Of a stretch of DNA of 64,000 nucleotides, positions 11,687 through 52,000 are shown one piece after another. The notes below the pieces were generated by a model that was not told the DNA's origin, searched no databases, and saw only the letters and a list, made by a program, of their open reading frames with translations. The translations under genes were made by a program, and so were the position numbers. Within the stretch, counting starts at the first letter, position 1; every line of letters begins with the position of its first letter. The DNA is taken from the NCBI RefSeq assembly GCF_000006565.2, contig NC_031468.1, positions 1,133,747-1,197,746 of the forward strand. The letters are read 5' to 3'. This DNA is from Toxoplasma gondii ME49. Lineage: Eukaryota > Apicomplexa > Conoidasida > Eucoccidiorida > Sarcocystidae.

Positions 11687-14600
11687 ATGGGAACATCGAC
11701 GCTGGACGCCAGCGTCGGCCATCACGGACCTTCTGTCCAGCAGCCCTTTGAGGTTGCGGCCTCACCGCCACCCGACCGAGGCTTTCCCTTCGAATCCGAA
11801 AAATGGATTTTTGCCGTCCTCGTCGTTCTCATCATTGAGTTGGTAAGATAAAAGAAGATGGAAACCAGTCCGTTCTCGTACTCCCGTGAGCGCTTTTAGG
11901 CGACAAGCTGTGGCGTGGTCACCTGATGTCCCATGCCGCGTCCGCGAGGCACATGCTCGTCCGGAGTCAGCGGGCGGCGGAAAGTTGGGGACACAAACCG
12001 TCGAGGCTTTCTCTGACCGTTGTCTTACAATTCCTTAACTCTTCTTACCGTGCTCGCTGCTCGTGACGGCACTGTGCAGAACAGGGAAAATCTGTGACTT
12101 CCTTGGTGTGGCAGACCCGCACTCGCGCTCTAACAAGAATGATGCCTCGTGGGTCCAGCTTCTACAACTAAAACTGGCTCACGTGCCGAATTTGATCATC
12201 TCTCTGTGGCAGTTGTTTTCGCAGAACTCAGTTTCTTCATTGTAACGGCGGTTTGCGCCGTGCTGGCCATTTTGCTGAGAGTCGCCGCGGCGAGTCACCG
12301 CAGGTGGTGATCGAGCCAGGTGAAGACACTGCACAGCACAGTCCGTGCTGTTCCCATCTGTGAAGGAGCGAGCCGGCTGGTCAGTCTTGTTCCTACTGGA
12401 TGGCGGCGAATCGTCACTTCGTCTTTTTGTGCCGCGCATGTCTTTCGTCGTGTTTCCAGGCAGGGCTTCTGCTGTACCTGGTCGGGCGGGCATTGCGGCG
12501 CCGCTGCGTGCATTCTGCCGACGCATCATGCTCAGCAAGAGAGCCTTCCTGCTCCTGTCCGTCGGGGACGTCTTCCGTCCTGATCGGCGAGGTGGCTTCT
12601 CTGCCGCAGAAGGCGAAGGATTTTTCAACTCCTCTGCAGGGCGCCAGTCACGTCCACTCCGAATGTTCGACCTTTGAAGCCTTGCCCAACGATTTCCGGC
12701 TGTCATCTTCGCATTCCGGCGGATTCTGCGGCTCGTCTCTGGTGGACTCCCAGAGCGCAGGGCTGCCAGAACAGGAGCACGCGCTCGTGTGTGGCGAAGA
12801 CAGCGTGTGGCAGCTCAAGGCCAAGGACGGACAAATGGGGACGTTTGACTCCGACGCTTCGATATCGTCTCTTTCCCGCGTCTTCCCCACCCCCCTCATG
12901 ACGCGCGCATCACGGACGCTAAGAGTCGACGACGAGGATAAGGCAAGGGAAGACCGAAGCGGACTGCCGCCAGCCGCTCTTCTGGCTGCCCTCGAAGGTG
13001 TTTCCGAGTCGGCGTCGAAAAGGAACTTCGACAAGCGTGAGCGGAACGCCGTCGATCGCTCGGGAGACAGCCTTTCCTCCCTTGTCTTGGGAGGAAGAGG
13101 AAGGAGGGCTGCTGATGCCGAGGCTCTTGCCCATGTCCACTCTCCTTTCTCCGCGCCCTCGCTTGACGCATTCACCTACGCGTGGAAGGGTGCCAGCACG
13201 CTGCATGGCGAAGACATCACCGACATGAAGGAGCGGCGAATGTACTCCCGGAAATCCATGCTTCAATGTCGCGTTGCTCTGGTAAGCTTGCCGGAGGGAA
13301 AAAGAGATCATCCAAACGAGGAGCCGAACACAGCAAGCACGTCAAGCCCTGTACGCAGGTTTCCGCTGAGTGCAGTCGCCGCAGGTCTCGAACCAAAATG
13401 CTGTTTCTCTGTCGTCATCGTCTCCGGATGCCCTCAAACTGTTCACTGATGAAAAAGGGCAAGGTCCCGTTTAGAAACCAGACGCCTCCTCGCTAGGTCC
13501 GACACTCGCTTCAGAAGCTGCCCGAGACCACAATTCCAAATCGGTATCTTTTTCCCCTCTAGCGCGAATGCCCCCTCGGCCCGCCTGTCCGCTGTCTTAG
13601 TTCTTTGCGTTGTCGTTCTTTCCTGTAGATTGGTCTACGCCGTGTTTCGTCTGTGTCGGCTGCTCCTCGCTTCACTCTTTTCGTCGGTTTCGTCGCCTGT
13701 CTGTTCCACAGCAGGAGAAGACAGCGCGGCTCATGAGGCAAGGGGGTCTGCAAGACGGCGAGAAACCTCCCGCGTACGGAGACGCGGCTGGCGCCTCCAA
13801 CTCTTGTCAGCAGGAACAGTTGCTGTTGCCTCTGTCCTCTCTCGAGTTGCTGCGGAGTCTTCGGTGTGAGGCGGTAGAGGCTGCGTCCTCAGGGCGTCCT
13901 CGCTCGTCCTTGCACAGCTCTCGCTCCTCGCGATTCTCCTCCGGAGGGGCCTCGACGAATGCAGGTTCTGCTATCGCAGCTTTCTCCTCGCAGGACTCTC
14001 TCGACTCGCTTTCTGCAGCCGACGTTGTCAGCGTGGACGACGTACTCCACAAGCGAGACGGATGCGCGGAGGAACGGCTGTCGCGCAGCCTGGCAGCGCT
14101 GGCAAAAAGTCCAGTGAACCGCCGGGCGGTCACCCGCGAGGAAAGTGCGCGAGGCGAAGAGGTAGAAAACATCGCCGAGGAGAGACGAGGCAGCGAGAAG
14201 CTGGACCGGGGAGGAGTGTGGCGCCGATCTTCGACCGCGGAAGGCGTCGCCGCAAAGGCGATAGAGAAAAGCAAGTCGAGCAGAGTCGCCCTCCCGCCTC
14301 GAGGAAAGGGCGAGTTCGAGCACGTCCTCGAAAGGTAGGTTTAGGTCTCAGGCATAGTTGTCCTATCGCTGATTTCGCGTATGGCTTAGTGTAGGGTGGA
14401 GTGGATACATCTTAGGATACATCTTAGAACGAAGGAACTTGCGAGCGCGTTTCCGATTCCTCTGTCGCAGAGCCATGAAGCTGAAACAACTCGATATCGC
14501 CATCACCGTTCACGACAGCCTGCGGGCAGAAAACGTCAAAATCGACCGCAAGAGCTACATGCTCCTTGTCCAAATTGCAATGAGGTACGAAGGCAAGCCA

Positions 14601-17306
14601 CTCTCGAGGTCCGATGTCAGACTGGGCCGGTTTCTTTCGAGTGAATTCTTCGGAATTTTCCGCCCCTGCGATACAGCAGAGAGACGTGGAGCATCAGAGG
14701 TGTCTGTGTTTTTCTTTCTGAGGAAGCAGAGGTCACACAATGATGAACCACGAACTCCTGTAATAAGGCATTCGCCTGCGCGCGCGCGTGCTAATGGACC
14801 TTTTCTTCGAAAGGGGCGAGATAGTCACAACTACAGTGGGTTTTCTAGCAGACCTTTTGTAAGCAAAGACGGAATCATTCATCCCCTCCGCAGTCACCCA
14901 TTTTATGCACTGCAGCCACACCACTACAGCCACAGCGTGTCAGGTTTGAAGGCGTTCCTCGTTCCTTCAGCGCGCCCTACTTCCCTCCCCTTGACGCCCG
15001 TCAGTTCAGGCCGAACAAAAAAAAAGAACGCGTTCGCTCCACCTTCTTTTCTGTGAATGCCTTTCCTGTGTGCAACGTGAAGGTGGAGTGTCTCTGTGTT
15101 GTGCGTCAGCCGGAAAGATGTAGCGCTGCAGTCTCAGTGGTTGCTGGAGATGATCGACGAAGGCCATGCCATCGACGCATGCTGGCTGGACCGTCTCTTG
15201 GCGGCGGCGTCCGTCTGCGACCCGACAACGACGGCAAGTCTGTACCGGGATCTGGAGTCTCGCAGTACGTTGCTGTCTCCGGAATGTCTTGCGGTTCTCC
15301 AAAGTGCGAAAACATACATTTCTGTCGGCACCAATTTGATGCGCCGAGCAGCAGGATCTGGGAGTGCAGGGAGCAGACGTCTGGGGAGACAGGAAGAGTT
15401 GAAGAGGGGATGCAAGAGCTACAAAGGAGGAGAAGAAGACGTGACCAGCGACGCGTCGCCCTCGCGTGCGTCTTGCGAAGGGAAGGCCCAGGTACGCAGC
15501 GTCTCGAGGTTCTGTATGACTGCTGTGCACCACTGGCCCAGTCGACTGAAAAAACAGACAGCTAGATATGGTGGACTGCTATATTCTAAAGAGCAGGAGC
15601 AACAGAAGCAGGTGTCAAGAACGATTTTTGGAGGTGTGTGAGAGTCGAGGACTCACGAGAAGAAAGGGAGAGAAGAGCAAGGGACCGCGTTCCGCAGCTG
15701 TCTTTTTGTGTTGTCGGTAGAGTGGATTTTGGGCGGTGGAGGGGGGGGAAAGGAAAGAAAGGTGACTTGGGAGAGAGAAGACAAACAGTGTCAACGAGGA
15801 AAAGCACAGAAAAACGGACTGAGGGTGTGTCCGGTCAGTGTGACAATCGAGGCGTAGACGACCGGGAGCGTTGTCCAGTGGTTTTCGTTTTCACTTCGCT
15901 TGTGTTGCCTGTGTGTTTGATCAGAAGAACGGGGAGACGGGAGTTGCTGGCCGGGCGTCTGAGAGTTCGTCGCCTTCGAGTGCGCCGACGTTGAACCCAA
16001 ACGCTCCGGAGTTTGTGCCGCTGACTTTGCGTTCTTTGCCCCGCCGGTTGCCGGAGACAGTTTCGGGGCTGCGCTACGCGTTTTCTCCTTCGTTCTCTCC
16101 TCCCTCGATGTCTCCGTCGCAAGTTAACAGCGCGGCTGCTGCCTGCCCCGTGACGGCCGCGACGGTGGACCTCAGTGCGTTCGGCACTACTTCCTCGACT
16201 CTCTCGCCGGGGCTCTCCAAGGCGAACCTGGCGCAGTTGTCGACTCTGCGCCTGCTCCAGACTCAAGGGCCGCCGCCGGGTGTCCCTACACCCGACGCAG
16301 TCGCAGCGTCTCTCCTGGCGATGCTCTCCACGTCGCTGTCGCCTGCGCCGGGGGTGCCGGAGCAGTCTGCGGAGTCTGCGCGACGAGACTGGGTTGCCAG
16401 CAGGGGCGAAGAGGCCCTCCAGACGAGCGCAGAGAAGCAGCCAGAAGACTCGAAAAAGAGCACACTTCGACTCCAGATGCAGGAAATGTACACGCGAGCG
16501 AAGGAGGGGAGGGGAAAGGTCATGCATGCAGGATCTGGCGTGAACAAGGACAAGAGGGAGAAAGAACGGACGGGTGACAAGAGCGACGGGCGGCGCAAGG
16601 AGGTACGTTTCGAGCACTGGTCGCCGCGGAGGATGGATGTACGGAGGAGGCGGCAAGGAACAACGAAACAGAGAAAGAGAGAGAAGCAGCGACGGACTGA
16701 GAGGGGAGGATTTTTCGCTGAGACAGCGAGACACGCAAGCAGTGAGGAGGAGGTATCGAAACGACATGGGTGGCGGGCCGGGGAAAGAAAGGACTGTGGG
16801 AGGTCCGAACTATCACCAAGAGAAGAGGGGAGGGTGTGTTTGTCTGGGAATCCTAAAGAACGCCGCTGGAGCACATGGTGAAGTTGCCACGGTATAATTA
16901 GACAGTGGGTGTCTCAGCACTAATGGTCTGTGGGGAGACTCAGATGAAATGTACTTGCAGCTTTCTCTGTTTCCGCTCGTCTTTTGTGGACGTTGATTTC
17001 GTTTTTTCTTGTTTGTGTTTCCAGGAGACAAAAGTGACGTCGTGTCTGGACCAGTTCCAAGCGTTTAACGACAAGAGGATGTCCGATTCCCTGAACTCTG
17101 TCCAGAAAGAAGGGAAGCGAGGTGCCAGCGCGAGTTCTTCGGAGAACGTTGACGAGAAAGAAGGCGAAAATGAAGAGAAGTCTGTGAAACTCTCGCTCCC
17201 GGACAGCGACCGCACGAGCGTCTACCACGGCGATGACGAGCGTGGAGCAAGTGACAGTGGGCAGAGTGAGCTGGAGAAGCCGGTGAAAAAGGCTTCAGAA
17301 GAGTGA
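11687..17306 (+). CDS. Signal-anchored PPR-like protein with PAM2 motif, 7 exons
   Basis: Exons 11687-11842, 12460-13281, 13712-14334, 14471-14584, 15110-15491, 15925-16602 and 17025-17306 have GT-AG borders and consistent phases, giving 1018 residues. Residues 40-60 form one hydrophobic helix split by intron 1 (WIFAVLVVLIIEL plus AGLLLYLVG), followed by RALRRR, which predicts a cytosolic C-terminal part. Residues 65-530 are Ser-rich and low complexity. Exons 4-5 encode at least two helical hairpins of pentatricopeptide type (about 535-610), for example QLDIAITVHDSLRAENVKID then LQSQWLLEMIDEGHAIDACW. At 722-731 is LNPNAPEFVP, a near-ideal PAM2 motif, which in other proteins binds the MLLE domain of poly(A)-binding protein. 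The tail is Lys/Glu/Ser-rich. Inferred role: tethering poly(A) mRNA-protein complexes to a membrane (ER, nuclear envelope or mitochondrial surface). I do not recognise a named orthologue. An in-frame ATG at 11486 is an alternative, less likely start. Confidence 0.85.
15991..16020 (+). other. PAM2 motif (PABP-interacting motif 2)
   Basis: The ten codons read LNPNAPEFVP, preceded by Ser/Pro-rich sequence (SSAPT). This matches the PAM2 core (L, N, A and F with a following P) known from Paip1/2, eRF3, Tob and ataxin-2. It sits at the start of exon 6 in a disordered region, as PAM2 motifs normally do. Confidence 0.85.
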
Positions 17307-27727: not shown

Positions 27728-30700
27728 TTACAGTCTCTCAGGTTCTTTCCTGTCTTCACACTCCTGCTCATAGGCGGCAAGCAAGAGGTGATGCATTTCC
27801 TTCAGAAAAACAGACCTTGGACGTCTTTCTCCCTCACGTCTGTCTCCTTCCTCTTCCTCCAGAGAGCCGAGGAGAGCCGCGAGGCGCGCGAGAGAGAGAA
27901 GAAGCAGCTCTTCTTCTTCTCCTTCCTGTTGGAGCCAGGCTAGAAGAGTCCCGTATCTCCTTGTCCTTCCTCGCTCATTTTTCCTCGTCTCTCCCTCTTC
28001 CTCCACCTCCACATCCGTCGTCGTGGTCTTCATCTCCTCGATCTCTCCAGGAACTGCTCCTTTCGCGTTTCGCTCACTCTCTTCTTTCTCCTTCCCCTTC
28101 GTCTCCTCGTTCCTCTCCGTGTCTTTTCCTGCTGTCTCCCCTCTCTCTGTGTCTTCTTTCTCTGTCTCCTTTGAGGACTGGGTCGCGCTTAGAGGTCGGG
28201 CTCCATCTTCGCTTTCCCCGCGCCTTTCGGTTCGACTTTTGAGAAGTCCGTCCTCCTTGGGGACGACTGGTGCATGCATCGACGCGACGCTTCTGAGTCT
28301 CAGAAGGCGACAAACCTCTCTTCGTTGCTCTTCCTCTAAGCAGCTCTCTCGGTCTCGGTGGTTGCTGTTCTCCTTCATCCGCGTTTCCTCCGAAACTGAA
28401 ACGTGGAAGAACTGCAGGAGAACCGCGCGCACAGTCTGGCGGTAAAAGGAGAGTACCACTCTTTCTTGGTGTGCTTGCTCGTCTGCTTCCTGCCATTTTC
28501 TCCGAATCTCCTGCGAGTCGCCCTCAAACTGCAGGCGACGTTTCCGCTCTTCGCCTCCCAGAGGTACCGCAGTGTGAAGGCTCTCTGGCTGGGCTTTCGG
28601 TGTCGCCGTTTCTTCCGGAGACGCATGAAAAAGTCGCTCCGCGAGGAGAAGAATCGGCACGCGCAAATCCGAATAAAGTGTAGCTGTGTCGAAGAGGCGC
28701 TGCCACGAAGAGCGAACCAGATCTTTGCTGAACTCGAGGGCAGCTGTACAGACACTCCGACTCTCTGTGGCTTCCTCTCCACATTCTGCACTTCCCCAAG
28801 CAGACAACGGAGACCGACAACACTGCGTATCAGGAACGGACGAAGATCTAGATGAAAAGGACAATGGAGAGGAAGAAGAAGGGAGAGAAGAGGAGGAAGA
28901 AGAGAACGACAAAGGAGGAGAGGAAGGAGAGAAGGGATAAGGACATGAAAGCGTGTCTCTTTGTTTCGTTTCAGAAGACGGAATCATCTCGGAAAGAGTT
29001 CTGAGCGTCGCATGCAGAATTTCGTAGGCCGAGGAAAGAGTGTCTTCTCTGGAATGTCTTTGCAGCCACTCGGCAACAGGCGGCAGAGATGACAGCCGGC
29101 GTTCTCGAAATGCACTTCTTCGTCCTGGGCCGCCAACAGCCGCTCGCTCGCTTGTTGAGAGTCCCACCGTCCTTTCTTCCAACACGAATGTTCTCTTCGA
29201 CTCGGGCTCGACAGTTTCGAGAGAAGAAGAAGAGCAGACTGGGTGGAGGCGACCGAGCGCGTCCCGCTGTCTAGACACTTCGTTCTCGACCCTCAAAGGA
29301 GGCGCCAAAAAAGAAATGCTTGGGCGTTCGCTTTCGACAGAAGCGCCGAGACGGACCCTCAGTGCAGTCCGTGCGTCGACGTTCTTGCAAGCGACAAAAG
29401 CAGGTCCGCCTGCGCCGGTGTTGACGGTGTTCGGTGAAGGAAAGGAGTTCTCGCTCGAGGACAGACAGGCGTTTTGGCGAACGCGCTGTTGCGGAGAAAA
29501 GGAGCAGCCAAAGGCCGCAGGCACATCCGAAAGAAGGGCGCAGGAAGAACGCAGGAGAAGCGAATGAAGTGCCAGGAACACAGAGCCGCAGAGGCACTGA
29601 CGGCGATCCGCGGGGCTGCCTTCTTCTCTTGCTCCTCGACCAAGGCGTGCTTTCGCGCGAAGGCGGTCATCGGCGTCTGTCTCCGTGTCTTTCTCTCCGC
29701 AAGCGTCGCCTTGCCGTCGAGCTGAAGTTTCTTTCCCCGCCGCTGGAGGCAGGCCACACAGACAGGTGAGGCGAGTCGCTGGGCCAGCGGTGAGAACTGG
29801 CAGAGCAGAGAGAAGCGGGTGATTTGCTCCAGCAGGGAGACAGAGCGGCAAGCGAGCAGAAGCGAGAAGAAGAGGAAGAAGCCGTTCGCGCATGCACCTG
29901 GAAAACGCAGAGAGGAGGCTCTGCTGTGCATGGAACGGCAGGCTTTCCGCGTTTGACAGCGAACTCTCTGGAGTCGGAGAGGACAGAGAAGACGCAACTG
30001 ACCAAACTGTCTCGCATGTCGCGACTGTGACCTTCCACAGCGGCTCGAGAAGACAGAAAAGCTTGCGCCTCTCGGATGTCTCGCCACCTCCTCCCCGCGA
30101 TCTCTGCTCTTCCCGAAGAAGGCCCAGTGTGCATTTCTGCATCGTTTCGTGGAGGAGTATCAGCAACTCGATGGGAGAGAAAAGGAGAGAGACAGCAGCT
30201 GCAGAAAGCGGAGGAGAGAGGGAGACCCCGGAGGAAGGCGCCGACGCCTCTGCAACCGCCTGCACGACGGCCGCTTTGTGCGCTTTGTTCCCGAAAGAAT
30301 AGCAGGAATCCTGGCTAGAACTGCGGTCGAGATCCGAGAACGACCCGTCGCGCGCGCTTTTCCTCGGCCTCACGTCTCCACGTGTGTCTTTGCTCTTTCG
30401 GCGATTAAGGCCCCCAGAGTGAAACAAAGATCCCGAGAAAAGCACCGCCCGCCACGCGGCGAGCAGAGAAACGAACAGATCCTCGACAACTCCCCTTTCG
30501 TCTAAAAGAAGATTCAGGAACGCGGCTCTCCTTACGCAACTCGACATGTCTCCGTGACATCCCTCATTTGATTCGTCTCCTTCTGCTCCCTGCTCGTCGC
30601 TTTCTCGGCCATTCCCCTGTCTGTTTGGCTCCTTCGTTTCTCTCTGTCCTCCACTTCCTGGTCGGTGGCACCTGCGAGTCTGTGGGCGCGCTTCTGCTTC

Positions 30701-33700
30701 TTTGAGACTTCTAGAAAATACACCGCGCTCTGCGCTCTCTTCCTCTGCGAAGCTCTCTTTCTTCGCGCCTGCATGCGGCGCAAGCGTGCCTAGCGCCTCC
30801 ACTTCGGAGGCGAGGAAGCGCCAGACGCGGACCAAGGCTTTCGCAAGCTCAAGGTCTTCGGCTCGCTCCTGACCTTCCTTTCGCTCTTCGCCAGAGTCTC
30901 CTTCCTTCGTCTCCTGTTTCCGCGGGCCATGAGGACGCGGCTCGAGCGCCAGCGCCGGCGGCGCCTGGCGCTGAGGCGCTGCTCGCAGGTCCGCGGGAAG
31001 CCTCAGGGCGCGCGTGAGAGACAAGACGAGTATTTTGTACAGCGGACGCCGCACAGTTCCTTCCCGGTGGTGCGCGAGAACAGCCGCAGACTCCGAACAC
31101 GAGTCAGAAGAAGGCGAGGAACTCAACGAAAGCGACGCAGGAGACGCAGATCCGTTGTGCAGCAAAGAAGGGTGACATGAGGAAGAAGAAGAAGCAGAAG
31201 AAGAAGAAGAAGAAGAAGGAGAAGGAGAAGCAGAAGAAGGAGAAGGACGTGTGGGTGTAAGGCTGTCAACGAGAAGGTTGATTGAGTTGACATAGTTAGC
31301 AGACCCCCGGGAGAAGATCAGGGGTGAGAAGAATCCGAAGAAAACGGCAGAATTTGAGACAAGTCCAAACGTCTTGTGCATTTCTCTCTCCTTGCACACG
31401 GCACCGTCCACAGCAAATCGAGAGGGCACCGCGTTCTCACCTTCTGCAGAAGATCCTCCTGTTTCGCCTGCGCTCTCGGCTTGCGCAGCCTCAGCAAAGA
31501 GACGCCTTGCAGCTCCTTTCTGCTCGTCTCCCTCTCGTGCCTCTTTGCTCTCCCCTCTCTCCGCCTGCACGTCTTCTTCCCCGCCTCTCACATCTTCTCT
31601 CGAGCGACTCGCCATGAAACCTGCCTTTCTTCCAACTGTCTCTTTGTCCCCTCTCTGAGTCTCCTCCTCTCTCCTGTGTCCTCTGTCTCTCACCTCCGCT
31701 TGCAAGTCAGAGCGGAGAACGCATGCACTTCGAGAAAGAGCGCGAGCCACGCACTGAAGAACAGAGACACAAAGCGCAGAGACAGTTTTGAAGGAAGAAC
31801 GCGACGCTCGCTCCTCCTCCTCTCCGCTCTGAAACGCCTCCGCAGAAGAAGAGACAGAAGAAGAGAAAGGAGAGTAAGAAGGAAGAGAAGACGAAGAAAC
31901 GGAAAATGAGGAGGAAGAAGAGTCGCATTGCGTGAGGAGTGGAACGAGCTTTGTGAGGCTACAGAGAGCCATGTAGTTGGGTGCGATTGGTGATGGAACT
32001 TTTTCAAAGAGAACGGAGAACGAAGAGAGAGAACAGAAGAGAGACGAGTCTCCTGTGGCGCACGCAGTCAGAACTTCGGCGGTTCGAAGAACGAGAAGAA
32101 CTCGACAGACATCAGCCGCGGCGGGGACCGTTGACTTCTTCACTGGAGATGTACTCCCGTCCGCTTTCCTCGCAACGACATCACTGCCGCTCTCTCCTTC
32201 TTCCCCATTCTCGACCTGCCCATCTCGCGCGCGCCGCTGCTCTCTACTGGTGTATGTACACCTCGCACCAGCGGACTTGTAGAAGAAGGAACACGCGAGG
32301 AGTTCTACAAGCGCGTCGAGAAGCTCCAAGACGGCAAGCAATGCACAGCCTTCGCGGTCCTCGCTTGTACACACTGTGTTTGTAGTTCGTTCTTCTTCTT
32401 TTCTTTCTCGTCTTCGCCAAGTTTCGCCCTCACGCCTCTGAAACAGAGGGCTCAGTGTCGGCAAAGAATCGCAAAGTCGATTGAGCAGAAGAAACAGCAG
32501 ACTCGTCTCGTTCTCCTCTTCGTTCGCTCTCTTCTCTCGCTTATCTGTGTTTGGATTTGAACATTCTTCTCCGTTTCCACTTTCCTCGCAGAGCATCCAG
32601 GCGACGAGAGCTGCTGTTCGGCTTCGGCAAGTGAGTGTGGTGAGGGGTGCGAAGAGAAGACCCAGGAGAGAAGCGAAGAAGCGAGCTTTTTCGACGGAGA
32701 AGGTAGAAGAGGCCCGTGGAGCACAGACACAAACTTTGTCTTTCTCCGACATATCCCCCCTACCTCTGCCTGCTTCTCCCGCCTTCGCGACTCCCTGTTC
32801 CTTCTCTTCATGCCTCTTTCTGTCTTGTGCACAAACACGAGCGTCCTCTGCCAGGATTCGCCGAGAGAGAGACTTCGACGCAGCTGGCCGCCTCAACGCT
32901 TCCAAGAGGAGACCAAGTCCGCCAGCTTCTCCGCAGACGAGCTGCCAAGCCAGACCCAGTCTCTCTTCGTCGAGGAGTGCGTCTCGGGGTGTCTCCAGAG
33001 AGCCGGAAAACTGGTAGCGGAAGTCCGTAAGCCACAGGGCGAGGAGAGAGGCTGCGGTGGATGTCCACCCCGGGACGCCCTGCAGAGCTCGCAGCGCCTT
33101 CAGAGTGCAGAGGTGGAGCTGACGCTGAGGAAACTCCACGCGGAGAGAAGCAGAGGAAGAGCGCGAGACAGAGGGCGTCGTCGCGCCGTTCACGCGGTGC
33201 AGAACTGACAAGAAAAACAGCTCTGAGGAGAGAGGCGCGGGGAGAGGAGACCGAGTCGAAACCTGAAGACTTTCCAGGTCTTTTTCGCCGTCGCTGCACA
33301 CTTCGACGCGTAAAAAAGGCGCTTCTCGCGTCGCGGAGTTGCCAAGTTCCACGGAAGGAAGTGACGGAGATCCAGACGCGTCGCGGCTAGCCAGCTCTCT
33401 GGACTGTACATACACCGCAACTGCATCCAGGATGGACTGCACAGCTCGCTTGTTTAGGTCAGGCAGAGCACCCGAAAGTGCAATTTCGTCTGTCTTGTCC
33501 GTCTGGGGATTTCGAATCTTGGAAACGGGGGACCATTCGCATCTCTTCTCTCCTCGCCGTTTCTCATTTGCGTCCCTCGGTGAGACGCGCACGTCTCGTT
33601 CCTCCTCAGCCACTCCTAAGCAAGAGAAGAAATCGCTGCTTTCGCTGCGGTTCCCGAACGGAAACTGCGTGTCTCCACTTTCAGGAACCCCCCCAAAACG

Positions 33701-34762
33701 AAAATCCGAATCAGGCAACAGAGAGAGGAGAAAGAGACCTATAGATCGAAGCTCGACACTCTGGTCTCGAGATCCAAACTCTCCTCTGCTTCGGAGGCGC
33801 TTGAGGTCCCCAGATGCTTCCAAGAGAACTCCTTTCTCCTCGGTCTCCCCACAAGTAGCTTGAACCGTCGTCAGGCAAAGGCGAGAGAGAGGCTTCTCTC
33901 TGTGTTTCGACGCCGGCCGCGGCAACTCAGCAGACGGGGAGGCGACCTGCGGCAGACAAGGCTTCCCTGTCTCCTCCCCAGAGAGGCTGCTGCACGCTTC
34001 AACAGCCTCTCTCGTGTTCCTGTGTAACTGCGTATGCGCGTCTGCATGCGTGGCTGTCAGTGACGCCAGGATGTGAGGGATGTGAGACGAGGAAGGAGAA
34101 ACGGAAGACGACGAAGAGTTCGAGGAACATGGAGAGGCATCACAAGAGGAAAGAGAGACAGGCGCGGGTGAATCAGCTAGAGAGACAGACGGCAGTTCAG
34201 ACGGGGCGGACAAGGAGGAGGCGCACGACGAAGGCTGAAGATGTTTCGAGCCTAGGGCCGATGCGAGAGAAGACAGAGAAGAAACGGAAGGACACTCCGG
34301 CGGAAAAAAACGAGGCGAACTGTCCGGCGAAGCGAGGAGTGGAAGGGATGAACAGGAAACAGGTGGAGGAACTAGGCGCTGCAGGAGAGCGACTGCGTCG
34401 CGGAAACTTGGAGAGACAGAACAAGAGAGAGGAGAGGAAGACGAATGCGATTCAGAAGAGGGAGGAGTCCCTGCCTTTTCCTCTGAAGAGATTCTTTGCT
34501 TGATTTGCTTCTGCTTTCCTGGAACAGCTTGATGTGAGAAACCTGAGAAAGGAAGATGCAGCGTGGTTCCACCATTTCCGCCACGGATGTCTGAAAGCGC
34601 CTTTGCGCGTGATTTGCGGGGATCAAACTTTCGAGAGAAAAGACCTTCCTTCTGAGGGGTCTCTAGACACTCGATTCGGGCGAGGAGGGACTCGTCTTCC
34701 AGCAAATCCGGGGGATGGAGTTCCGCATACTCTGCAGAGACGGCGCAGGAGCAGGGAGCCAT
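27728..34762 (-). CDS. Giant single-exon hypothetical protein, 2344 aa
   Basis: A 7 kb uninterrupted frame, which cannot be chance. The first true ATG is at 34762 in a good context (GCAACCATGG); the frame continues a few codons upstream without another ATG. I do not recognise the family. Hydrophobic helical stretches rich in Leu and Ala (for example NLLLDERGVVEDLFVSLLAA and SPIELLILLHETMQKC) are separated by Ser-rich and Glu/Arg-rich linkers, a pattern seen in large alpha-solenoid (HEAT/ARM-like) scaffolds; that is inference. A poly-Ser tract is near residues 1170-1195, and residues ~2180-2280 are Lys/Glu/Thr-rich. The end returns to Leu-rich helices (LLSLARLAALLGSLEEE). There is no signal peptide or clear membrane helix. 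The nearest likely regulatory feature is a TGCATGC cluster about 530 bp upstream of the ATG. Confidence 0.8.
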   Translation of the reverse strand: MAPCSCAVSAEYAELHPPDLLEDESLLARIECLETPQKEGLFSRKFDPRKSRAKALSDIRGGNGGTTLHLPFSGFSHQAVPGKQKQIKQRISSEEKAGTPPSSESHSSSSPLSCSVSPSFRDAVALLQRLVPPPVSCSSLPLLASPDSSPRFFPPECPSVSSLSSLASALGSKHLQPSSCASSLSAPSELPSVSLADSPAPVSLSSCDASPCSSNSSSSSVSPSSSHIPHILASLTATHADAHTQLHRNTREAVEACSSLSGEETGKPCLPQVASPSAELPRPASKHREKPLSRLCLTTVQATCGETEEKGVLLEASGDLKRLRSRGEFGSRDQSVELRSIGLFLLSLLPDSDFRFGGVPESGDTQFPFGNRSESSDFFSCLGVAEEERDVRVSPRDANEKRRGEKRCEWSPVSKIRNPQTDKTDEIALSGALPDLNKRAVQSILDAVAVYVQSRELASRDASGSPSLPSVELGNSATREAPFLRVEVCSDGEKDLESLQVSTRSPLPAPLSSELFFLSVLHRVNGATTPSVSRSSSASLRVEFPQRQLHLCTLKALRALQGVPGWTSTAASLLALWLTDFRYQFSGSLETPRDALLDEERLGLAWQLVCGEAGGLGLLLEALRRPAASKSLSRRILAEDARVCAQDRKRHEEKEQGVAKAGEAGRGRGDMSEKDKVCVCAPRASSTFSVEKARFFASLLGLLFAPLTTLTCRSRTAALVAWMLCEESGNGEECSNPNTDKREKRANEEENETSLLFLLLNRLCDSLPTLSPLFQRREGETWRRRERKEEERTTNTVCTSEDREGCALLAVLELLDALVELLACSFFYKSAGARCTYTSREQRRARDGQVENGEEGESGSDVVARKADGSTSPVKKSTVPAAADVCRVLLVLRTAEVLTACATGDSSLFCSLSSFSVLFEKVPSPIAPNYMALCSLTKLVPLLTQCDSSSSSFSVSSSSLPSYSPFSSSVSSSAEAFQSGEEEERASRSSFKTVSALCVSVLQCVARALSRSACVLRSDLQAEVRDRGHRREEETQRGDKETVGRKAGFMASRSREDVRGGEEDVQAERGESKEAREGDEQKGAARRLFAEAAQAESAGETGGSSAEGENAVPSRFAVDGAVCKEREMHKTFGLVSNSAVFFGFFSPLIFSRGSANYVNSINLLVDSLTPTRPSPSSASPSPSSSSSSSASSSSSCHPSLLHNGSASPASLSLSSSPSSDSCSESAAVLAHHREGTVRRPLYKILVLSLTRALRLPADLRAAPQRQAPPALALEPRPHGPRKQETKEGDSGEERKEGQERAEDLELAKALVRVWRFLASEVEALGTLAPHAGAKKESFAEEESAERGVFSRSLKEAEARPQTRRCHRPGSGGQRETKEPNRQGNGRESDEQGAEGDESNEGCHGDMSSCVRRAAFLNLLLDERGVVEDLFVSLLAAWRAVLFSGSLFHSGGLNRRKSKDTRGDVRPRKSARDGSFSDLDRSSSQDSCYSFGNKAHKAAVVQAVAEASAPSSGVSLSPPLSAAAVSLLFSPIELLILLHETMQKCTLGLLREEQRSRGGGGETSERRKLFCLLEPLWKVTVATCETVWSVASSLSSPTPESSLSNAESLPFHAQQSLLSAFSRCMRERLLPLLLASARLPLCLPAGANHPLLSALPVLTAGPATRLTCLCGLPPAAGKETSARRQGDACGEKDTETDADDRLRAKARLGRGAREEGSPADRRQCLCGSVFLALHSLLLRSSCALLSDVPAAFGCSFSPQQRVRQNACLSSSENSFPSPNTVNTGAGGPAFVACKNVDARTALRVRLGASVESERPSISFLAPPLRVENEVSRQRDALGRLHPVCSSSSLETVEPESKRTFVLEERTVGLSTSERAAVGGPGRRSAFRERRLSSLPPVAEWLQRHSREDTLSSAYEILHATLRTLSEMIPSSETKQRDTLSCPYPFSPSSPPLSFSSSSSSLPSSSSPLSFSSRSSSVPDTQCCRSPLSAWGSAECGEEATESRSVCTAALEFSKDLVRSSWQRLFDTATLYSDLRVPILLLAERLFHASPEETATPKAQPESLHTAVPLGGEERKRRLQFEGDSQEIRRKWQEADEQAHQERVVLSFYRQTVRAVLLQFFHVSVSEETRMKENSNHRDRESCLEEEQRREVCRLLRLRSVASMHAPVVPKEDGLLKSRTERRGESEDGARPLSATQSSKETEKEDTERGETAGKDTERNEETKGKEKEESERNAKGAVPGEIEEMKTTTTDVEVEEEGETRKNERGRTRRYGTLLAWLQQEGEEEELLLLSLARLAALLGSLEEEEGDRREGERRPRSVFLKEMHHLLLAAYEQECEDRKEPERL

Positions 34763-36358
34763 GGTTGCGACGTGGAACAAACTCGAAGAAGCGGCGGCTT
34801 CCCTATTCGGCGAAATTAGTTGAAGTAAGCGTCTTGTTTACGTTCGCGTATGCGCATTCGTGGCGTTCGCGGTGCCGCTGTCTCGGTCTAACATGCAGGG
34901 AAGCAGCACCCGGCGCCGGTCAATTTCAGAAAACCGGAAAACTGCGTGTTGCATGAAACCCAATCTTGTCCGTTCCCTGCCCATGCATCCGAGGACTTTG
35001 AAAATAATTTGAGGAGCCGAATCCCTGCTTTATGAAGGAAAACAAAGTGGTAAGCGGCGAAAATGCCCGCTGACAGCTTGGCTTTTCCCTGGAGTCTCTG
35101 CAGAGTGACTCGAGCGCCTAGCGAGGAATTCGAAAGAGCACGGTGCGCGGCGCCGCGCAAAAAACGAGATTCTCCCCCCGTCTGAGCACAGAGGTGGTTT
35201 CGCAATTGCAAAGAGAGTGGCGAGAAGAAAAAGCACCCGGGGATCTTGGGGAACAAGGCAATTACAAGCGGGTCAGCATAGATACAGCATGCATGCACTG
35301 CATGCGAAGGGAACTGAGGAACAAGCTCAGGGAACAGCGTCGGTCTTCACAGAAAAACGAAAAGATAGACCCGCACCGGCGCAGTGTGGTGATTTCCGTG
35401 ACTTTTCAATTGGCAGAGTTTTGCCGTCTGTGAGAACTCGAGTAGAGGACGAGAAATGCGTAGGAGCGGGAAACGCCGGGGACCGGCTTGACGCCTGAGA
35501 ATAGGATCCCATGATTCATGCCGTGTGTGGCACAGTGCAGACGAACGCAAATGTAGCTTATATCTACGGAAGTAAACATGTACATATACACATGGACAGA
35601 CTTGCGAATTTGTGTGTAGATATCGGGCTACGAGCAACTATCCAGTAAAAAAGGGGTTAGGGTTTACGGTTGTGTTGTGGGCGAAGAGCCAATGAGAGGA
35701 ATGCCGAAGTTTCTTTCTGGGAACTGGCAGCTCTACAGCAGTAAAATGCGAGGGTATTCCAAATTTTGACGAGTACTTCAGTTTGCAGTTCCTATTCACT
35801 GAACCAGGCCATTTTCAGACACCTAGGAATCCCTGTTAGTTTCCGCAAGGGGTGGTCGCAATGCCTGCCTTAGGTTTTGGAAGCGAGCTTTGGTATAAAC
35901 GTAGACGGAAAGGAAAGTGAACGAAAAGGTGTCAGGTTTGCTCTTATGTTAGAGGCTCCGCTCAAGAGACGAAGGTTCTGCAGTAAAGTGAGGGTTCTAG
36001 GTCTGCAAAGATGTCCAGCATTGCAGTGACACGGGTGCACGCTTCGAGTGTTCACTCAGCTGTCGCGCCGAGAATCCAGGCTGACACTCTCGCATTTACC
36101 CACAGGTGAACCGGGCCGCTGTGTATGAAGGCATCGGCCTGCTCCATCGAGCTTCCAACGAGCAAAAGCTGCGAGTAACTTCACAGCACGGTTCAGTGTT
36201 CTTTCCTCGAGAAGGGGATTTGAAAACTGGGTCTTTTCATGGGTGCCTCAATCGGGTTTTTTGAAACGGGATGTTGCGCAGTTTCGAAGACGAGGCATAC
36301 AACACTGTCGTAGTCTTCAGTGGATGCGACTGCGCACACCATTCGGGGAGTATCAGGC
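34763..36358. other. Intergenic, promoter side of the giant ORF
   Basis: Upstream region of the giant minus-strand ORF, and downstream of the last confident exon of the REJ-like gene. It contains the TGCATGC cluster at 35287-35306. Composition becomes AT-richer from about 35.5 kb. A minus frame at 36193-36393 could be a further exon of the REJ-like gene, but I cannot link it by splice sites. Confidence 0.45.
35287..35306. promoter_or_regulatory. TGCATGC motif cluster
   Basis: Overlapping GCATGCATGCA (35287-35297) and TGCATGCG (35299-35306) lie about 530 bp upstream of the giant ORF start. TGCATGC is a recurrent apicomplexan promoter word, known as TRP-2 in Toxoplasma ribosomal-protein genes and bound by some AP2 factors. 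Function here is inferred from position only. Confidence 0.4.
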
Positions 36359-44006: not shown

Positions 44007-45164
44007 ACCGCTTTCTTAGTATCTCGCACATCTTGAAGACAGGAGCGTGCCTCCAAATGCCGAGCCCATGGACCAGGAGGACTCTATGGCAGTCTCTCTT
44101 CCTCCCTTGTCTCTCTTCCTCTTTTCCCTGTGCGGCTCAGGTTCTCCTGCGTGCTCTGGCGTATTCTGTTCCACATTTCCCTGCCTCGATTTGCTGTGAG
44201 AAGTCTTTTTTTCGCTCCCAGATCGACTCCACGTCTCCTCTGCATGCACAGGGGAGATGCGACCCAAGCGGTCTGATATCTTTCTCGCTTTTCCGCAAGA
44301 ACGAGAGCTGCCACCTTTTCTCGTCTCTGCGAAGAAGAGTACTCTGTTGGCCGTATAGTTTCGCTTTTCCCTCTTTTCTGGCGTCCCCCGCCTGTGCGCG
44401 TGGGGACCTCGCAGCGTCTTGCCCCTTTCGAGAGCCCGTATGAGGTGTAGCTACACCAAATATTTCCCGCATTCCCCTGCTGTTCCTCAAGGAGGTAGCA
44501 CTAGACAGCAGATACTCGTGGCCACGGCCCGGAACAGTTTTTTCTTGTTTACGGCTCTTCTTTGCCTCCGTTTCCCCGTCTTGTCCACGTCGAGTCCCCC
44601 CTCCACTCACGGGTTGTCTCTGTTCTCCAACTGCGCATGAAAGGGGAGAGGAATTTTTCTTTGTGGCTTTGCTCCTTTCTTTATCGCGTCCACTGACTCT
44701 GTTCTGCTTAGAACGTTCTGTGCATCCTCTCCTCCACGTCGTGTTCCATCGCGTTTCGCGTGTCTCCAGCTTCCCCACCTTTGATTTCTCCGACTGCAGG
44801 TACGCCCCTTTGTTCGCGACCACAAGTGAGAGTCTTCAAGCGCGTCATTCGTTTTCCCCTTTCTCTTTCTCGCGCGTTTTCCTCCTCCACTCTCCACTCT
44901 TCGTCGTCAGCCTGTTTTCTCTCAGCGTCTCGTCACCCCCGGAACCGGGGGCGTCTCTGCAGCTGTCTTGACCTTCTTCTCTCTCCTCTCGCCTCGATTT
45001 ATCAGTACGAAGACGGTTACACTTATTCCTTGCGCAGCTTCTCGGGAACCAGCTGATAGACTTCCTGGAGAGGGTGAGAACCCACCTGTTCCGTACCTTG
45101 CTTCCTTTGAAGACTTCGAGAGGCGCAACTCCGCACACACGAAGAGTCGCGAGGGGCGAGAAAA
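44007..45164. other. Gap between REJ-like gene and FAM76-type gene
   Basis: Pyrimidine-rich on the plus strand, so minus-strand frames look long (228 codons at 44137-44823) and charged by composition alone. It probably contains the leader and promoter of the plus-strand FAM76-type gene, and perhaps 5' exons of the minus-strand REJ-like gene that I could not identify. Confidence 0.4.
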
Positions 45165-47924
45165 ATGTCGGAGGAACCGGGAGACCAGCTGTACTCTCCC
45201 TCTCGCATTGAGGAGAGCCCGAAAGAGTGTGAGGACACGGGCGAGACGACAGGGCGAGGAGACAGCGGAGACAGGTGGGGTGAGCGCTCGGCGTCTCCCG
45301 CGAGGCGCGAGGCCAGCAGAAACGATGGTAGCCGTGAACTGAGCGAGAAGAAGAGTCATGCTTTTCGCCTCGGTGGAGAGAGAAGCGGGAGAGATGGCTT
45401 CGGGCCGAAGCCGACGGATGGCGACGCGCACAAGAGCGAGGCGCATGGACACTCGAAGAGCGGCGGAAGCCAAGAGGGCAGGCGAAGACATTCGGCGGAT
45501 CCCATCGCACGTAGAGGAGGTGGGCGCGAGGAAGAGAGGAAAGAGCAGGGAGAGAGAGAGAGAACGAGCAGCCGCAGAGACCGAGAGAAGTCTGGCGAGC
45601 GGGAGCGACCGCGGAGAGAACATGGCGAGGAGTGGCTTGGAGACAGGACGGGCGGGCGAGATCACGCAGAGCGGAAAAGAGACGAACACAGAAGCTCGGG
45701 CGGCGACTCGGAGGCCGTGAAGAGACAGACTCCAGTCTCTTCCTCGTCGTGTGCCACGACTCGAAGGAGGACCCGCTTCGACGTAGGACCCGAGGAACAC
45801 AAACAGATGCAGCGCTTGGAGCAGTGGCGCCAACTGGTTGAGCAGAAGGCGCAGGAAGAGCGAGCGGCTTTGCAGGCCGAGCAGAAGTCCGAGGCCAACA
45901 CGGCCCTCGTCGAAGAGTCCGACGACGACATGCAAATCGACGACGGCTCGGAGAGCTGTGCGCCGCCGGGCGCTTCCGTTTCCGGCTTCTCAGCCAGTGC
46001 CGAAGAGGTGAGAGAACGCGCCTCGGGCTTCTCTGGGTCGGGAAAGGGGCGCGACAGCCGCTGCGCAGAGTCTCCGAACAAGCGACGAGAAGAACGTCGG
46101 AGAGACAGAGACGACGACCGAAGAGACAAAGAGGAGAGCAGAAGAGACGACAGGCGGCGCGAGGAGAGGCGAGATCGTGATGGCAGGAAAGAATACGAAG
46201 GGAGACGGGAACAGGAAGGACGACGGGAACAGGAAGGAAGAGAAGAGCGTGAGGGAATGAGGAAACACGGAAAGCGAGAGGAGAAACATGAGAGGCGGGC
46301 GGACCGGCGCAGAGGATACGACAGACGAGAGGATCGCGAGGAAGAACGGAGAGGGGAGAGGAGGCGGGGCGAACGCGAACGGAGAGAACGCGAGTTGCGC
46401 GACGAGAGACGCACAGAGGAAGAGCGAAAAGACCGAGGGCGCAGCAGCCCCTGGAGAGACGACTCAAGTGGGCAAGGAGCCCCGCAGCCCAAGGAAGCCG
46501 AAGAGACGCCTGTCTCCGCAGGCCCGCAGGACGGGTCTTCGTTTCCTTCGCGAGAGGAGATGCGAGAACAGAAACGGGAGGAGAAGCGCGAGGAAGAAAA
46601 GGACAGCAGAGAGGAGGGAGGAGACCGGCCAGACGCACAAACTCAAGACGAGAAGAGCGAGGACGGGGACTGCATTTCCTCTCGACTCCGGCGCCGACAC
46701 ACCTCGCGGCGCGGCGCGTCGGGGCGCCTGACGTCCGACAACAGCGAGAGCGAAAAGTCCTCGCCTTCGCCTGTTTTCGATCGCGCCAAGAAGAGTCTTC
46801 ACAAAGGCCGCCGCGGAGAGGGTCGCACCTCCGCCGTCGCCCTCACTTTGGACGACGACGAAGAAGAGCAACGTCACGGTCACCTCCCGGGCTACTCGAA
46901 TCTGCCTTCGCCTTCGCTCTCGCCCGCCTCCTCGCGGTCGCGACGCTCGCGGAGTCCACTTCACAAACGGAGACTCTCTCCTCGAGACCTGACGTCCGTC
47001 GACCCCTGGACGCACATGGCGCAGAGGCATCCGTTCTCCGAAACCGGAGGCGAGGCTAGCGAAAATAACGGCGTCTCGACGCCTGGACCTCACCACGCAG
47101 CAACTCCCTTCGCTGTTGGTCCAGGCGGCCCCGTCATCCTGCACGCGCCTGCGGGCCAGGTCGCCGCGCCCCCCTTCTCGGGCGCACATACACCCCATCC
47201 GGGGGTCGGCCCCGGACCAGTCCCTGGGCCAGTCCCCGGGCCAGTCGGCCCGGAGACTCCGGGCGCGTTCGGGCCTGTGTGGGGCGTACCCTTCGCGCCC
47301 GCGGCGTATCCGGCGCCGGGGTCAGTGTGCCCTGGCTACTTTGCCCCGGCGGGGTCCCCGCCGTGGGCGAGAGGCCCCCACGGAGAGACTCTGGCACCGC
47401 GAGAGCGTTCGGAGACACTCGGAGACAGTGCGGCGGCTGGGAGACTCCCGGCGGACTTCGGGCCCGAAGTCCGGCCCCACGGGGTCTCTGGGGACCTGGC
47501 GGAGGCGCGAGTGCCACGGGGAGGCGCCTCGAGTTTCGTCGCGCCGCCTCTCGACGCCCATCCCGTGCTACAGCAGCAGGCTCGCGAACAGGCACAGCAA
47601 GTTCACACTCACTCTGTCGCGGTGATTGGCGCGAATGTGTGGAAGAAAATCGACAAATTGCGAAGAGCAAAGATCTGCTTGAACTGCCGGCAACAGCCCC
47701 AAAGAATCAGCAACGCCTCAGGCGCCCCCTCCGGCGTCTGCAGTGGATGTACACGCCACGTCGGCAGACAACACTGCAAACACTGCGGAATCGAGTTTCT
47801 GCAACATCACTACTGCGCCCAGGTAAAAGACACAGACGCGCAACTTTCGACAGACGGAACAGTATCTCAACTCTGTCCAAACACACAGTCAACAGACACC
47901 CCGTTCAGTGCTCTAACGCCATAC

Positions 47925-47980
<56 letters not shown>

Positions 47981-49000
47981 GTATATATATATATATAAAT
48001 ATATATGTACTGTGCGTATGTATTTATGTACGTACGCTTGTATGTATGTATGTATGTTTGTATGCATGTATGTATGTTTCTGTATAAATGTATGTATATG
48101 CATGTTTGTGTATGTAGGTGCATGTACAAGTATGTTTGTTGTCGCTGTAGGTATGCTTTTTTGTGTTTGACGAGTTGATGTTTTCGTTTTCAGTCGCTTT
48201 CATGAAGCGAGGAGAGACCCTCCACCGAAAGCTCTGACTTCCTGTCTGTGGCTTCTTCTGCAGGCAGAGAAATTGCTGGGTCGACCCATCTGCCTCGGAT
48301 GCGCCCGGCAACTGTCCAAGTACCGGAAAGATCCGAGCATGTGAGAAGCAGGCACTCGCTGGGGGGCTGTACAGACACTGGAAGCGGTCTGCTTTCCCGC
48401 GAGAAAGGTGGAGCGTGCCTGTCATTTCTTCGCGTCGTCCAGTTTCTCGTCTTTAGACACAAGAAAGGTCGCCCCAGGTGGCTTTCTGTGCATGTGTTTC
48501 TGTGTTCCTACGCATGCGGTCGCCCTTCTCAGTAGTTCATTGCTTCGCGTCTGCGTCTCTGTGGCCGGGCGCGAGCCCAGAATCGCCAGGGCAAGAACTT
48601 TCAGTCAAAACTCGTTTTCAAAGATTGGTTTCTTGAATAATCTCATCCGCACTCGCAGCTTTATCCTTTGCATGTATTAAAATCTGTCCTCTCTGCTGGC
48701 AAAAGAACTGACGCGATGTCCTGGTTCCTAGTGCCTCTAGTGAACTCCTGTGGTCTCGTCCTAAATACGCAGTGAAGTAACGAGATACAAGGAACTTGAC
48801 AGACAGTGTTCGATTCATACAAACGACTTTTTTCGTCTGCCTCGGTGTTCTCGATCCTTTTCTCTCCATTTCTCTACCTCCCTATGTACCCGTTTCCGTG
48901 GCTCCCCTCCATGAGCCTCTTCATGTGAAGCTGTGTTCACACCTTTCCGTATAAATATAACTACGTCTGTATATCTCTTCTCGTCTATTTGTAGAAATAG

Positions 49001-49039
<39 letters not shown>

Positions 49040-52000
49040 TGTGCGGGTGTGGCTGCTTTTGTGTGCACGTACGCCGCTGTGGTTAAGGAATTCCTTTGTT
49101 TTTCTTTTCTTTTTCAGCTGTCGGTACTGCAAGTGTTGGTCGGCCTGGAACGAAGCTCAGGAGTGCGAACGCTGTCGCTCTCGCATTCAACGGTGAGGAG
49201 ACAGCCGCGAGAGAAGGGAGAGAAGACGAAGGCGAATTGAGGGAGGAGAGCAGACGGGAGAGAGAAGACAAGGAAGAGGGGAAAGAGGAAACACTGGAAA
49301 ACGTTTTGCCGAAGGGGAAGGAAAGTAGACAACGAAGAGGAAGTGGAAGGAAGACACACGTTGTCGAGACTGCTTGTTCCACCGGCATCGTCTGCGTGTC
49401 TCGTGACGAAGAAGATACGAGAACTGTAGAGGAAGGCTGTTGTCTCCAAAGAGAGGATGCCTGCTAGTCCACGACGGCCTTGTGAGCGTAGAGTCATATC
49501 TCAGGAGTTGTGTTCTCTAGCTGTTGATGCAGTTGTCTGCTTTTCTCTCCAGACACGGAATGCCCCGAAGATGCGAGAAATGCGGCGTGGAAGCAGCCTT
49601 TCCGCGCGCATCAACGCCTCAGGAGGGCGAAAAGGGGGAGACGCAGGCCCCAGAGCTTCTTTGCTTTCTCTGCGCCTTCGCAGCGAAGAAGGCGCTGCTT
49701 CTGCAGCAGAGATCGAAAATCCGAGCGCAGCAAACACTGCAGCTCCTGCAACCTGGGCGCGTTGACGCCGCAGCTCTCGAGCTCGACCACGTACCCAGAG
49801 GCCTGCTCAGTGGACGCAGGGAAACGGTGAGGCGAACCGGAAGCCTTTTCGTCTTTCAGTCCACCGAAGAGGCGGGAGGGAAGGAAGGGAGAGAGGCCAA
49901 CAGGGCAAAAGAACGGAGAAAGGCGAAGGGGAGAAAGAACGTGAGGGCGAGCAGAGGAGCGCGAGAAACAGAGAGACAGTGTAAGAGAGCCGATGGTGGG
50001 AAAAAGAAGAAGCATTTCGTTTTGAGAAGCGAGTCTGATGCCGCCGGCCTGCTTCGGTTGCTTTTCCCTCAGCTTGGTCAGGAGACAGGGGAGCTCCCGA
50101 AAGAAGAAGACGCTGCGGCGAAACCTGCGTCTTTTTGGAAACAACACGCACAGACTCTTCAGCAGCAAAATGAAGAATTTCTGCAACAATTGCAACAAAT
50201 GCAGCAGCAGCTGCTCCATAAAGATTTGGCAATGCAAGTACGTGCAGAGAAGAGACACCTGAGTTTTGACAGACAAGCGAAGAAAGCACACGCCCTCGAC
50301 CAGTGCAGTGATGCAGAAAATTCGTGGATTCTGGTGTCGCTTCTGCTGCCCATGAACGAAACGACGCCGCTGCACAACTCGAGTGGGAAGAAGCAACCGA
50401 AAGAAACTCTTTTTTCTGGCTTTTGTTCCTGTCCGTGTCATTTGTTCTCCTCGTTTCTCGTATTATGCCTGGCGCTCTTCGTCGTCCTTCGAGTGCCTCG
50501 GATCTTTGCCAGTTTCCGTGCGCCTGACGGGAAACGCGCCTGCTTCGTTCGTTCTTTCTCCCGCGGGTTCCGGGGTGTATAGACAGCTGATTACCGGGGA
50601 AGACTCGCACAGACTGGTGCTCGCTGTGTTTTTTCAGGAGCAACAACAAGAGAAGAAGGAGCAGCAGCAGGCCCTGCAGCAAGACCTCCTTCAAGAGAAG
50701 CGTCGCAACCAACAACTGGTAGAGACTCGAGGCTCTCGTGTGCAAGAGAGAAAGAGGAAACAGAGGCGAGAGAGAAAAACACAAAAAGCGAAGAGAAAGA
50801 GAGACAGGCATTGAAAGATGTATGCCTCTAGAGAGACAAAGACAACTGCGGAGAAAGAGAGACTTTTATGCAGAGATCAAGCGAGTTCTACGCATATACA
50901 AATGTATTATTATCTATGACATATTATATACATATATACATATATATGTATATATTTTATGTGAAAAAACTACAGAGGCAAGGGGTGGAGAGAGAACTAA
51001 TGAACACTGACGAGGACAATATTTCTATATTTGTCCCTGTTTCCTGCGCCGTCGTTCAAGGAGCAGGCTTGCGACCGTCTGCGTATCTCCGACACCTTCT
51101 TAGCTCTCCTCTGTTCACCTCCTTTGCTGTGTCTGCTCGTTTCTGCTCTTTCTGTCCTCTCTGTTTTAAGGTTTCTCTTTCGTCTTGATTCCTTTTTTCC
51201 TCAGCTTCTGGACTTGAAACGAGCGTCGGCGGAGCAGGAGGCGCAGGCCGCAAAAGCAGCTGCCGACCAGCGGCGAACAGAAGAAACTCACTTGGTGAGA
51301 ATCGACTTCCTCCAAAGGATTCTTGCCCCAGTCGCGTTCAAGTGTTTTCAACTGTGGATCTAGAAAAGCATCAACGCGGAGAGACCAGAAAAAACCTCGA
51401 GGCGAGCCAGCGGGGAAGGGTGGCAAAAATAATACAGGGAAGGAACTTCTTGCGCTACAGAGAGAATTCAAAGGAAATAATTGTAGTGAAAGAGAATGGA
51501 AAAAAGAGCCAAAACGTTTACGCTCAATCTACGCAGTGCCATGAATGTCTACGTACACAGGTAGACGTGCATGTACGTTCGTTTGTCTATCTCATGCTCT
51601 CACATGAAAAAAAAATATACATAAAGATATATATATATATATATATATATATGCCCATTGCTTGGTGGGGGTACACGGGTGGGGTAAGCACAGTTGATGG
51701 GGATGAAAAAGTAGATTGTGACGAGGGAAATAGTGGGCAAGGGGGCGGTTTTCTTATGTTTTCCGGATCTCTGCAGGGCCTCTCAAATGCACTGCACGAG
51801 TGCATTGACCAGCTGAAGCGCAAAAACGAAGAACTCGAGTTGGAGAACAAACGGTGAGAGCAAGGGAGAAGAGAAACTAAGAGAGGAAAGTCGACAGGAA
51901 GAGGAGAGCCCGCACTCATCTCGCTTCCACCTACGCAAATCACCTTCACTCCACCTCGCTGTGTACATGGGGGAAATTACGAGTCGTTGCCTCTCTACCA

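Follow-up and report, generated by a model that had tools for sequence, protein, structure and literature searches.

Membrane mRNP adaptors as such are already known. The endosomal mRNA transport adaptor Upa1 of Ustilago maydis combines, in one protein, a PAM2 motif for the MLLE domain of Pab1 with a membrane-binding part and links mRNPs to the membrane; according to that study, a FYVE domain that binds lipids attaches Upa1 to endosomes, the protein also contains ankyrin and RING domains along with PAM2-like motifs that serve Rrm4, and the PAM2 motif is dispensable (PMC4466420). AKAP1 is described as a protein of the outer mitochondrial membrane that carries an RNA-binding domain and brings in mRNAs to be translated locally, and the main text of that paper contains 0 occurrences of PABP (PMC12650760). 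ADAM15, a transmembrane protein at the plasma membrane, binds PABP with its cytosolic tail, which coincides with translation there; it recruits PABP by another surface, and the word PAM2 is absent from the accessible text (PMC6161846).

Here we analyzed a 64,000-nucleotide stretch of the Toxoplasma gondii ME49 genome (the window), in which a preliminary description had proposed that one gene encodes an N-terminal anchor, PPR-like hairpins, and a PAM2 motif and tethers poly(A) mRNA to a membrane. That membrane-tether interpretation is partly supported. AKAP1 differs from the window protein in having KH and Tudor domains, neither of which was found in Pfam scans of the window protein and its relatives, instead of a PPR-like domain. 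Its anchor is N-terminal, and we know of no PAM2 motif in it. The outer mitochondrial membrane, where AKAP1 recruits mRNAs (PMC12650760), is one candidate site for the window protein. Upa1 differs in its mode of membrane binding, since the window protein has a membrane-spanning helix and a PPR-like domain and no FYVE domain in Pfam scans. The parallel with Upa1 that the preliminary description had drawn holds for the joining of PAM2 to membrane binding and is weakened by the dispensability of Upa1's own PAM2 (PMC4466420), because of which the presence of a PAM2 motif is not proof of a working tether. None of Upa1, AKAP1, and ADAM15 shares the window protein's combination of features.

A seven-exon gene encodes the anchor, the PPR-like domain, and PAM2

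Joining of reading frames at splice sites gave a gene of 7 exons at window positions 11687 to 17306 on the forward strand, where all its features described below lie, with a single frame of 1,018 residues. All introns have GT and AG at their ends and are in phase, and the stop codon is at 17304 to 17306. Exon 1 (11687 to 11842, residues 1 to 52) encodes the N-terminus and the first part of the membrane helix, and exon 2 (12460 to 13281, residues 53 to 326) encodes the rest of the helix, the sequence GRALRRR, and a disordered region with CSTFEALPND. Residues 327 to 533 and part of 534 come from exon 3 (13712 to 14334). Most of PPR-like unit 1 and the start of unit 2 lie on exon 4 (14471 to 14584, part of residue 534 to part of 572), and the remaining PPR-like domain lies on exon 5 (15110 to 15491, part of residue 572 to 699). 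Exon 6 (15925 to 16602, residues 700 to 925) encodes PAM2 and a pair of conserved helical motifs, and exon 7 (17025 to 17306) encodes residues 926 to 1018 and the stop codon.

The gene product is identical at 1,010 of 1,018 positions to a public T. gondii protein of equal length (P0001; UniRef A0A2G8XUE3, strain COUG, 13 member sequences), named only "Putative transmembrane protein," so that public annotation agrees with the gene model and with the joining of the anchor exons to the PAM2 exon. By the usual numbering convention, from Hammondia HHA_209250, we take the T. gondii gene to be TGME49_209250. In the comparisons that follow, the five proteins are P0001 itself and one each from Hammondia, Neospora, Besnoitia, and Cystoisospora. 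The N-terminal start MG[TA]STL was found in four of the five, which supports the annotated start.

Frame joining and annotation thus confirmed that the three features belong to one gene. The preliminary description had named separate genes for the anchor and PAM2 exons as what would refute it; in each of four genera (Toxoplasma, Hammondia, Neospora, and Besnoitia), one annotated protein carries the anchor, the PPR-like domain, and PAM2, a linkage that rests on annotation, not transcripts, and on ortholog annotations that may borrow from one another. The structure model of the whole protein was mostly unstructured (mean pLDDT, 41.0; pTM, 0.28). No description of the protein was found among the titles and abstract starts listed in our literature search, the scope of which did not extend to subscription papers, preprints, or supplementary tables.

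Elsewhere in the window, an uninterrupted open frame of 2,369 codons on the reverse strand (27728 to 34837) had no Pfam match at an E value of 0.1. A forward-strand frame at 49521 to 50582 had a subthreshold FAM76 match (24.1 bits; cut-off, 28.5). It may form exons of one FAM76-like gene together with the charged frame upstream (45111 to 48170, forward strand), because the latter ends in a similar cysteine-rich stretch.

Short conserved islands surround the PPR-like domain and PAM2

Protein searches at E values up to 1, 10, and 10 returned P0001 to P0006 only; one of the searches at 10 scored the 7,985 candidates sharing most words, and such a word-based search can miss distant relatives. P0006 (537 amino acids) aligns with a C-terminal portion of the Cystoisospora protein, and no Eimeria or Plasmodium relative was among the matches listed by these word-based searches. 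In the searches made, the protein thus appears to be confined to the five named genera and the fragment P0006. Toxoplasma, Hammondia, Neospora, Besnoitia, and Cystoisospora all belong to the Sarcocystidae.

Around the PPR-like domain and PAM2, five short motifs (CSTFExLPxD, YxRxxMLQ, SSQ[DN]SL[DE]S, SLLAxLS, and LR[LI]QMQEM) were kept in the same order in all five proteins, within otherwise fast-changing sequence. The first reads CSTFEALPND in T. gondii (residues 121 to 130; 12664 to 12693) and lies in a region predicted to be unstructured. SLLAMLS (residues 828 to 834; 16309 to 16329) and LRLQMQEM (residues 880 to 887; 16465 to 16488; LRIQMQEM in Besnoitia) fall in helices modeled with low confidence at residues 824 to 832 and 879 to 892. 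An FFAT-like reading of CSTFEALPND was rejected: E is followed by A in four proteins and by Y in Cystoisospora, which does not fit that motif. The Cystoisospora protein (P0005) carries the exon 2 motif CSTFExLPxD, the PPR-like domain, and PAM2 together. This pattern of conserved islands suits a scaffold with several docking sites.

A hydrophobic anchor is predicted to leave the C-terminal part in the cytosol

The signal anchor comprises hydrophobic residues 40 to 60 (WIFAVLVVLIIELAGLLLYLV), preceded by FESEK, and GRALRRR at residues 61 to 67 (11804 to 12504, split by the intron at 11843 to 12459). Hydrophobicity over 19 residues peaks in the stretch beginning at residue 41, with a mean Kyte-Doolittle value of 2.84, and the full model has a single membrane helix at residues 37 to 68 (pLDDT about 45 to 75). 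Hydropathy thus located the anchor where the preliminary description had put it, at residues 40 to 60 with RALRRR after it. The best 19-residue means were 2.84 to 2.93 in the Toxoplasma, Hammondia, Neospora, and Besnoitia proteins. The annotated Cystoisospora suis protein (P0005; 1,741 amino acids) lacks a hydrophobic segment, its highest 19-residue mean being 1.31; either its first exon was missed in the gene model or the anchor is truly absent. The point concerns residues 1 to 100 of P0005, a protein that is nevertheless named a transmembrane protein.

By the positive-inside rule, the side of a membrane helix flanked by basic residues faces the cytosol. Because basic residues follow the helix, we infer that the long stretch C-terminal to it is cytosolic, which probably places both the PPR-like domain and PAM2 in the cytosol. 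High anchor hydrophobicity favors the endoplasmic reticulum (ER), and a basic flank after the helix also resembles outer-mitochondrial anchors.

One membrane helix near the N-terminus would also be expected of a secretory or exported protein, of the dense granules or the surface, with its tail facing the lumen or the host. T. gondii has RRLPE at residue 739, which is like the TEXEL export motif. We rejected RRLPE as a TEXEL-like motif, as RRLx[ED] occurs in only one of the five proteins and lies far from the N-terminus. The basic residues after the helix predict a cytosolic tail instead, and in the lumen or the host there would be no use for a PAM2 motif directed at PABP of the parasite. We consider secretion or export very improbable.

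The PAM2 motif is conserved and has a candidate partner in the same genome

The PAM2 motif TLNPNAPEFVP (residues 721 to 731; 15988 to 16020; leucine codon, TTG) narrowly passed the Pfam cut-off for PF07145 (20.1 bits; cut-off, 20). In a six-frame profile search of the genome (65.3 Mb, 1,959 contigs), this site ranked first of 10 scored candidates, with 22.7 bits. LNPNAPEFVP starts at residue 722 and extends to 731, exactly as had been described, and the preliminary description's proposed check of the core in relatives gave a positive result: the core LNP[NH]APEFVP, with the essential phenylalanine, was retained in all five proteins and thus in five genera, each with a PAM2 match in Pfam at an E value of ≤1. 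The pattern LNxxAxEFxP arose in 0 of 20,000 shuffles of the window protein. At the protein's composition and an assumed proteome size of 6.2 million residues, about 0.1 chance occurrences of LNxxAxEFxP and about 0.00002 of LNPxAPEFVP are expected. Identity over residues 717 to 735 was 100% in Hammondia, 89% in Neospora, 89% in Besnoitia, and 68% in Cystoisospora; the flanks at 656 to 716 and 736 to 800 were 30 and 22% identical in Besnoitia and 15 and 25% identical in Cystoisospora.

Aligned over 11 residues, the motif departs at two positions from the superPAM2 peptide (PDB 8smo_B) and likewise at two from the Paip2 peptide (1jgn_B); the E values of 0.72 and 1 are those expected for matches of this length. 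The best row of this PDB search, 8pjs_A, is an unrelated repeat protein and was set aside. The term superPAM2 was not found in the literature searched.

A single MLLE domain was detected in the T. gondii genome (100.4 bits), within a frame that also has RRM domains (poly(A)-binding protein). It is identical to human PABPC1 at 40 of 59 residues, with KITGMMLE for KITGMLLE. A docking partner for PAM2 is therefore present in the same organism, and on motif and partner sequence the window PAM2 very probably binds MLLE.

PAM2-like sites were also found in other open frames. L003 to L009 contain FVFNPNASVFVPG, STLNALAPPFYPG, RLNASAPEFIP, QFNRNAQEFVPG, FQFNPHANAFTPS, SSLNPGAAPFIPT, and PLNPYATPFVP, and there are two further sites, L010 and L011. 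Seven of these nine fall below the Pfam cut-off and two pass only when summed with neighbors in their frame; a Pfam scan of the seven frame pieces of L003 to L009 found no other domain at an E value of 0.01. These sites suggest a PAM2-MLLE network in T. gondii. For PAM2 and PABP, our literature search with Toxoplasma yielded a single paper, on Plasmodium yoelii. As a separate observation, PLNPYATPFVP occurs with identical flanks on the chromosome-size contig C10 (L009) and on C862 and C1813 (L010 and L011; 850 and 803 bases), the latter two being probably unplaced duplicate assembly pieces.

The PPR-like domain has a predicted PPR-type fold and resembles the PPR code in unit 2 only

Helix spacing, a domain model, Foldseek, and VIA-align placed a PPR-like domain at residues 525 to 655 (14306 to 15359, interrupted by introns). 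In the predicted model, it has units at 525 to 559 (35 amino acids), 560 to 594 (35), and 595 to 628 (34), followed by a C-terminal helix, for seven helices in total, with A-helices starting at 526, 560, 595, and 629. The PPR-like hairpins placed at about 535 to 610 in the preliminary description were thus borne out as a predicted fold, with a longer extent. Modeled alone, the domain reached a pLDDT of 93.9 and a pTM of 0.86, and PPR or PRORP was named in 28 of the top 50 Foldseek titles. Foldseek gave no E value below 0.001; its best were 0.0059 with the domain as query and 0.0015 with the full-length model. One comparison, THA8-like (PDB 4leu), is a short PPR protein with 12% identity; THA8-like is organellar and soluble and has neither PAM2 nor an anchor.

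Checking against PPR-specific profiles, as had been suggested, gave a negative result at the sequence level. Pfam scans of the window protein and its relatives found no PPR family match, and hhalign with a PPR profile gave a probability of 14%. We also built a T. gondii PPR profile from 12 fetched segments among the 22 genome matches to PPR_2 at an E value of 0.1, which do not include the window gene. Against the five domains, its best score was 8.0 bits (Neospora), which 3 of 2,000 shuffles exceeded, so the domain was not separated from shuffles; the T. gondii domain was absent from the 15 best rows, and the whole window protein scored 0.4 bits. Because no PPR profile matched and no Foldseek E value was below 0.001, we label the domain PPR-like rather than PPR; judged by its modeled geometry, a PPR-type fold is nonetheless highly probable. 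A search for a second copy in the genome gave two matches, both the window gene itself, and a search of PDB sequences gave only two matches, both weak and confined to low-complexity or tag regions. Corazonin and FeoB_associated Pfam matches, weak and in one member each, were attributed to chance. Ordinary PPR genes, with PPR_2 above the cut-off, lie at C4:398776-400212, C7:2687520-2689742, C9:264494-269978, and C14:5188558-5189925.

Many of the fold matches are mitoribosome or plastid-polymerase chains, and nearly all PPR proteins known to us are organellar, from mitochondria and plastids. Both points would agree with an organellar PPR-type protein, in which the N-terminus is a targeting signal, the protein acts on RNA within either the mitochondrion or the apicoplast, and PAM2 arose by chance. 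The domain piece also gave a match to Mitoc_L55 (mitochondrial ribosomal protein L55) that would agree with this reading; with 12.7 bits (cut-off, 25; E value, 0.11), it is no better than chance, and we rejected it. However, residues 1 to 39, before the strongly hydrophobic helix, have two basic and five acidic side chains, unlike a matrix presequence, and a PAM2 that arose by chance would be unlikely to score highest in the genome and to persist across five genera. We regard organellar import as quite improbable.

In the PPR code, the base recognized by a unit depends on its residues at positions 5 and 35. These are T and D for unit 2 in four of the five proteins, with M and D in T. gondii; E, V, or H combined with D for unit 1; and D combined with S or P for unit 3. 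By sequence comparison, the code appears to be fitted only by unit 2 of the four non-Toxoplasma proteins and misfitted by units 1 and 3. With three units and at most one readable code, sequence-specific RNA binding by the domain alone is unlikely. Three hairpins, a net charge of 0 over 132 residues, and a code fit only in unit 2 do not support the earlier proposal that the array binds RNA, and direct RNA binding by the domain seems somewhat doubtful. Protein binding, or RNA binding assisted by PABP, is possible.

The absence of net charge and the position 5 residues (E, V, or H in unit 1 and D in unit 3) would fit a protein scaffold, in which the PPR-like alpha-solenoid binds protein and PABP is brought to the membrane, or competed for, to modulate deadenylation or translation while no particular mRNAs are located. 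The five other conserved short motifs resemble partner sites, and the further PAM2-like sites in the genome could compete, both of which agree with such a scaffold. We hold it as a tentative alternative, of lower probability than an mRNP adaptor.

A candidate membrane-anchored mRNP adaptor

We consider a membrane-anchored mRNP adaptor the best explanation of the window protein, with a probability of about 0.5; whether mRNA tethering is its main function is evenly balanced. Held by its N-terminal helix in the membrane of the ER or in the outer membrane of the mitochondrion, the protein would expose about 950 residues to the cytosol. The anchored tail would capture PABP via PAM2, and hence poly(A) mRNPs, at the membrane, and the PPR-like domain and the five conserved short motifs may recruit more partners (protein, possibly RNA) and so make recruitment selective.

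A stronger form of the adaptor would be a two-handed coccidian mRNA receptor, membrane anchored and facing the cytosol, in which a PPR-type RNA-binding domain picks transcripts by short sequence and PAM2 grips poly(A) tails via PABP. We think this form unlikely; we know of no earlier membrane-anchored, cytosol-facing protein with a PPR-type RNA-binding domain. If it were true, chosen proteins would be made on the surface of one organelle. The window gene is one directly testable candidate receptor for the placement of mRNAs on organelles in apicomplexan parasites.
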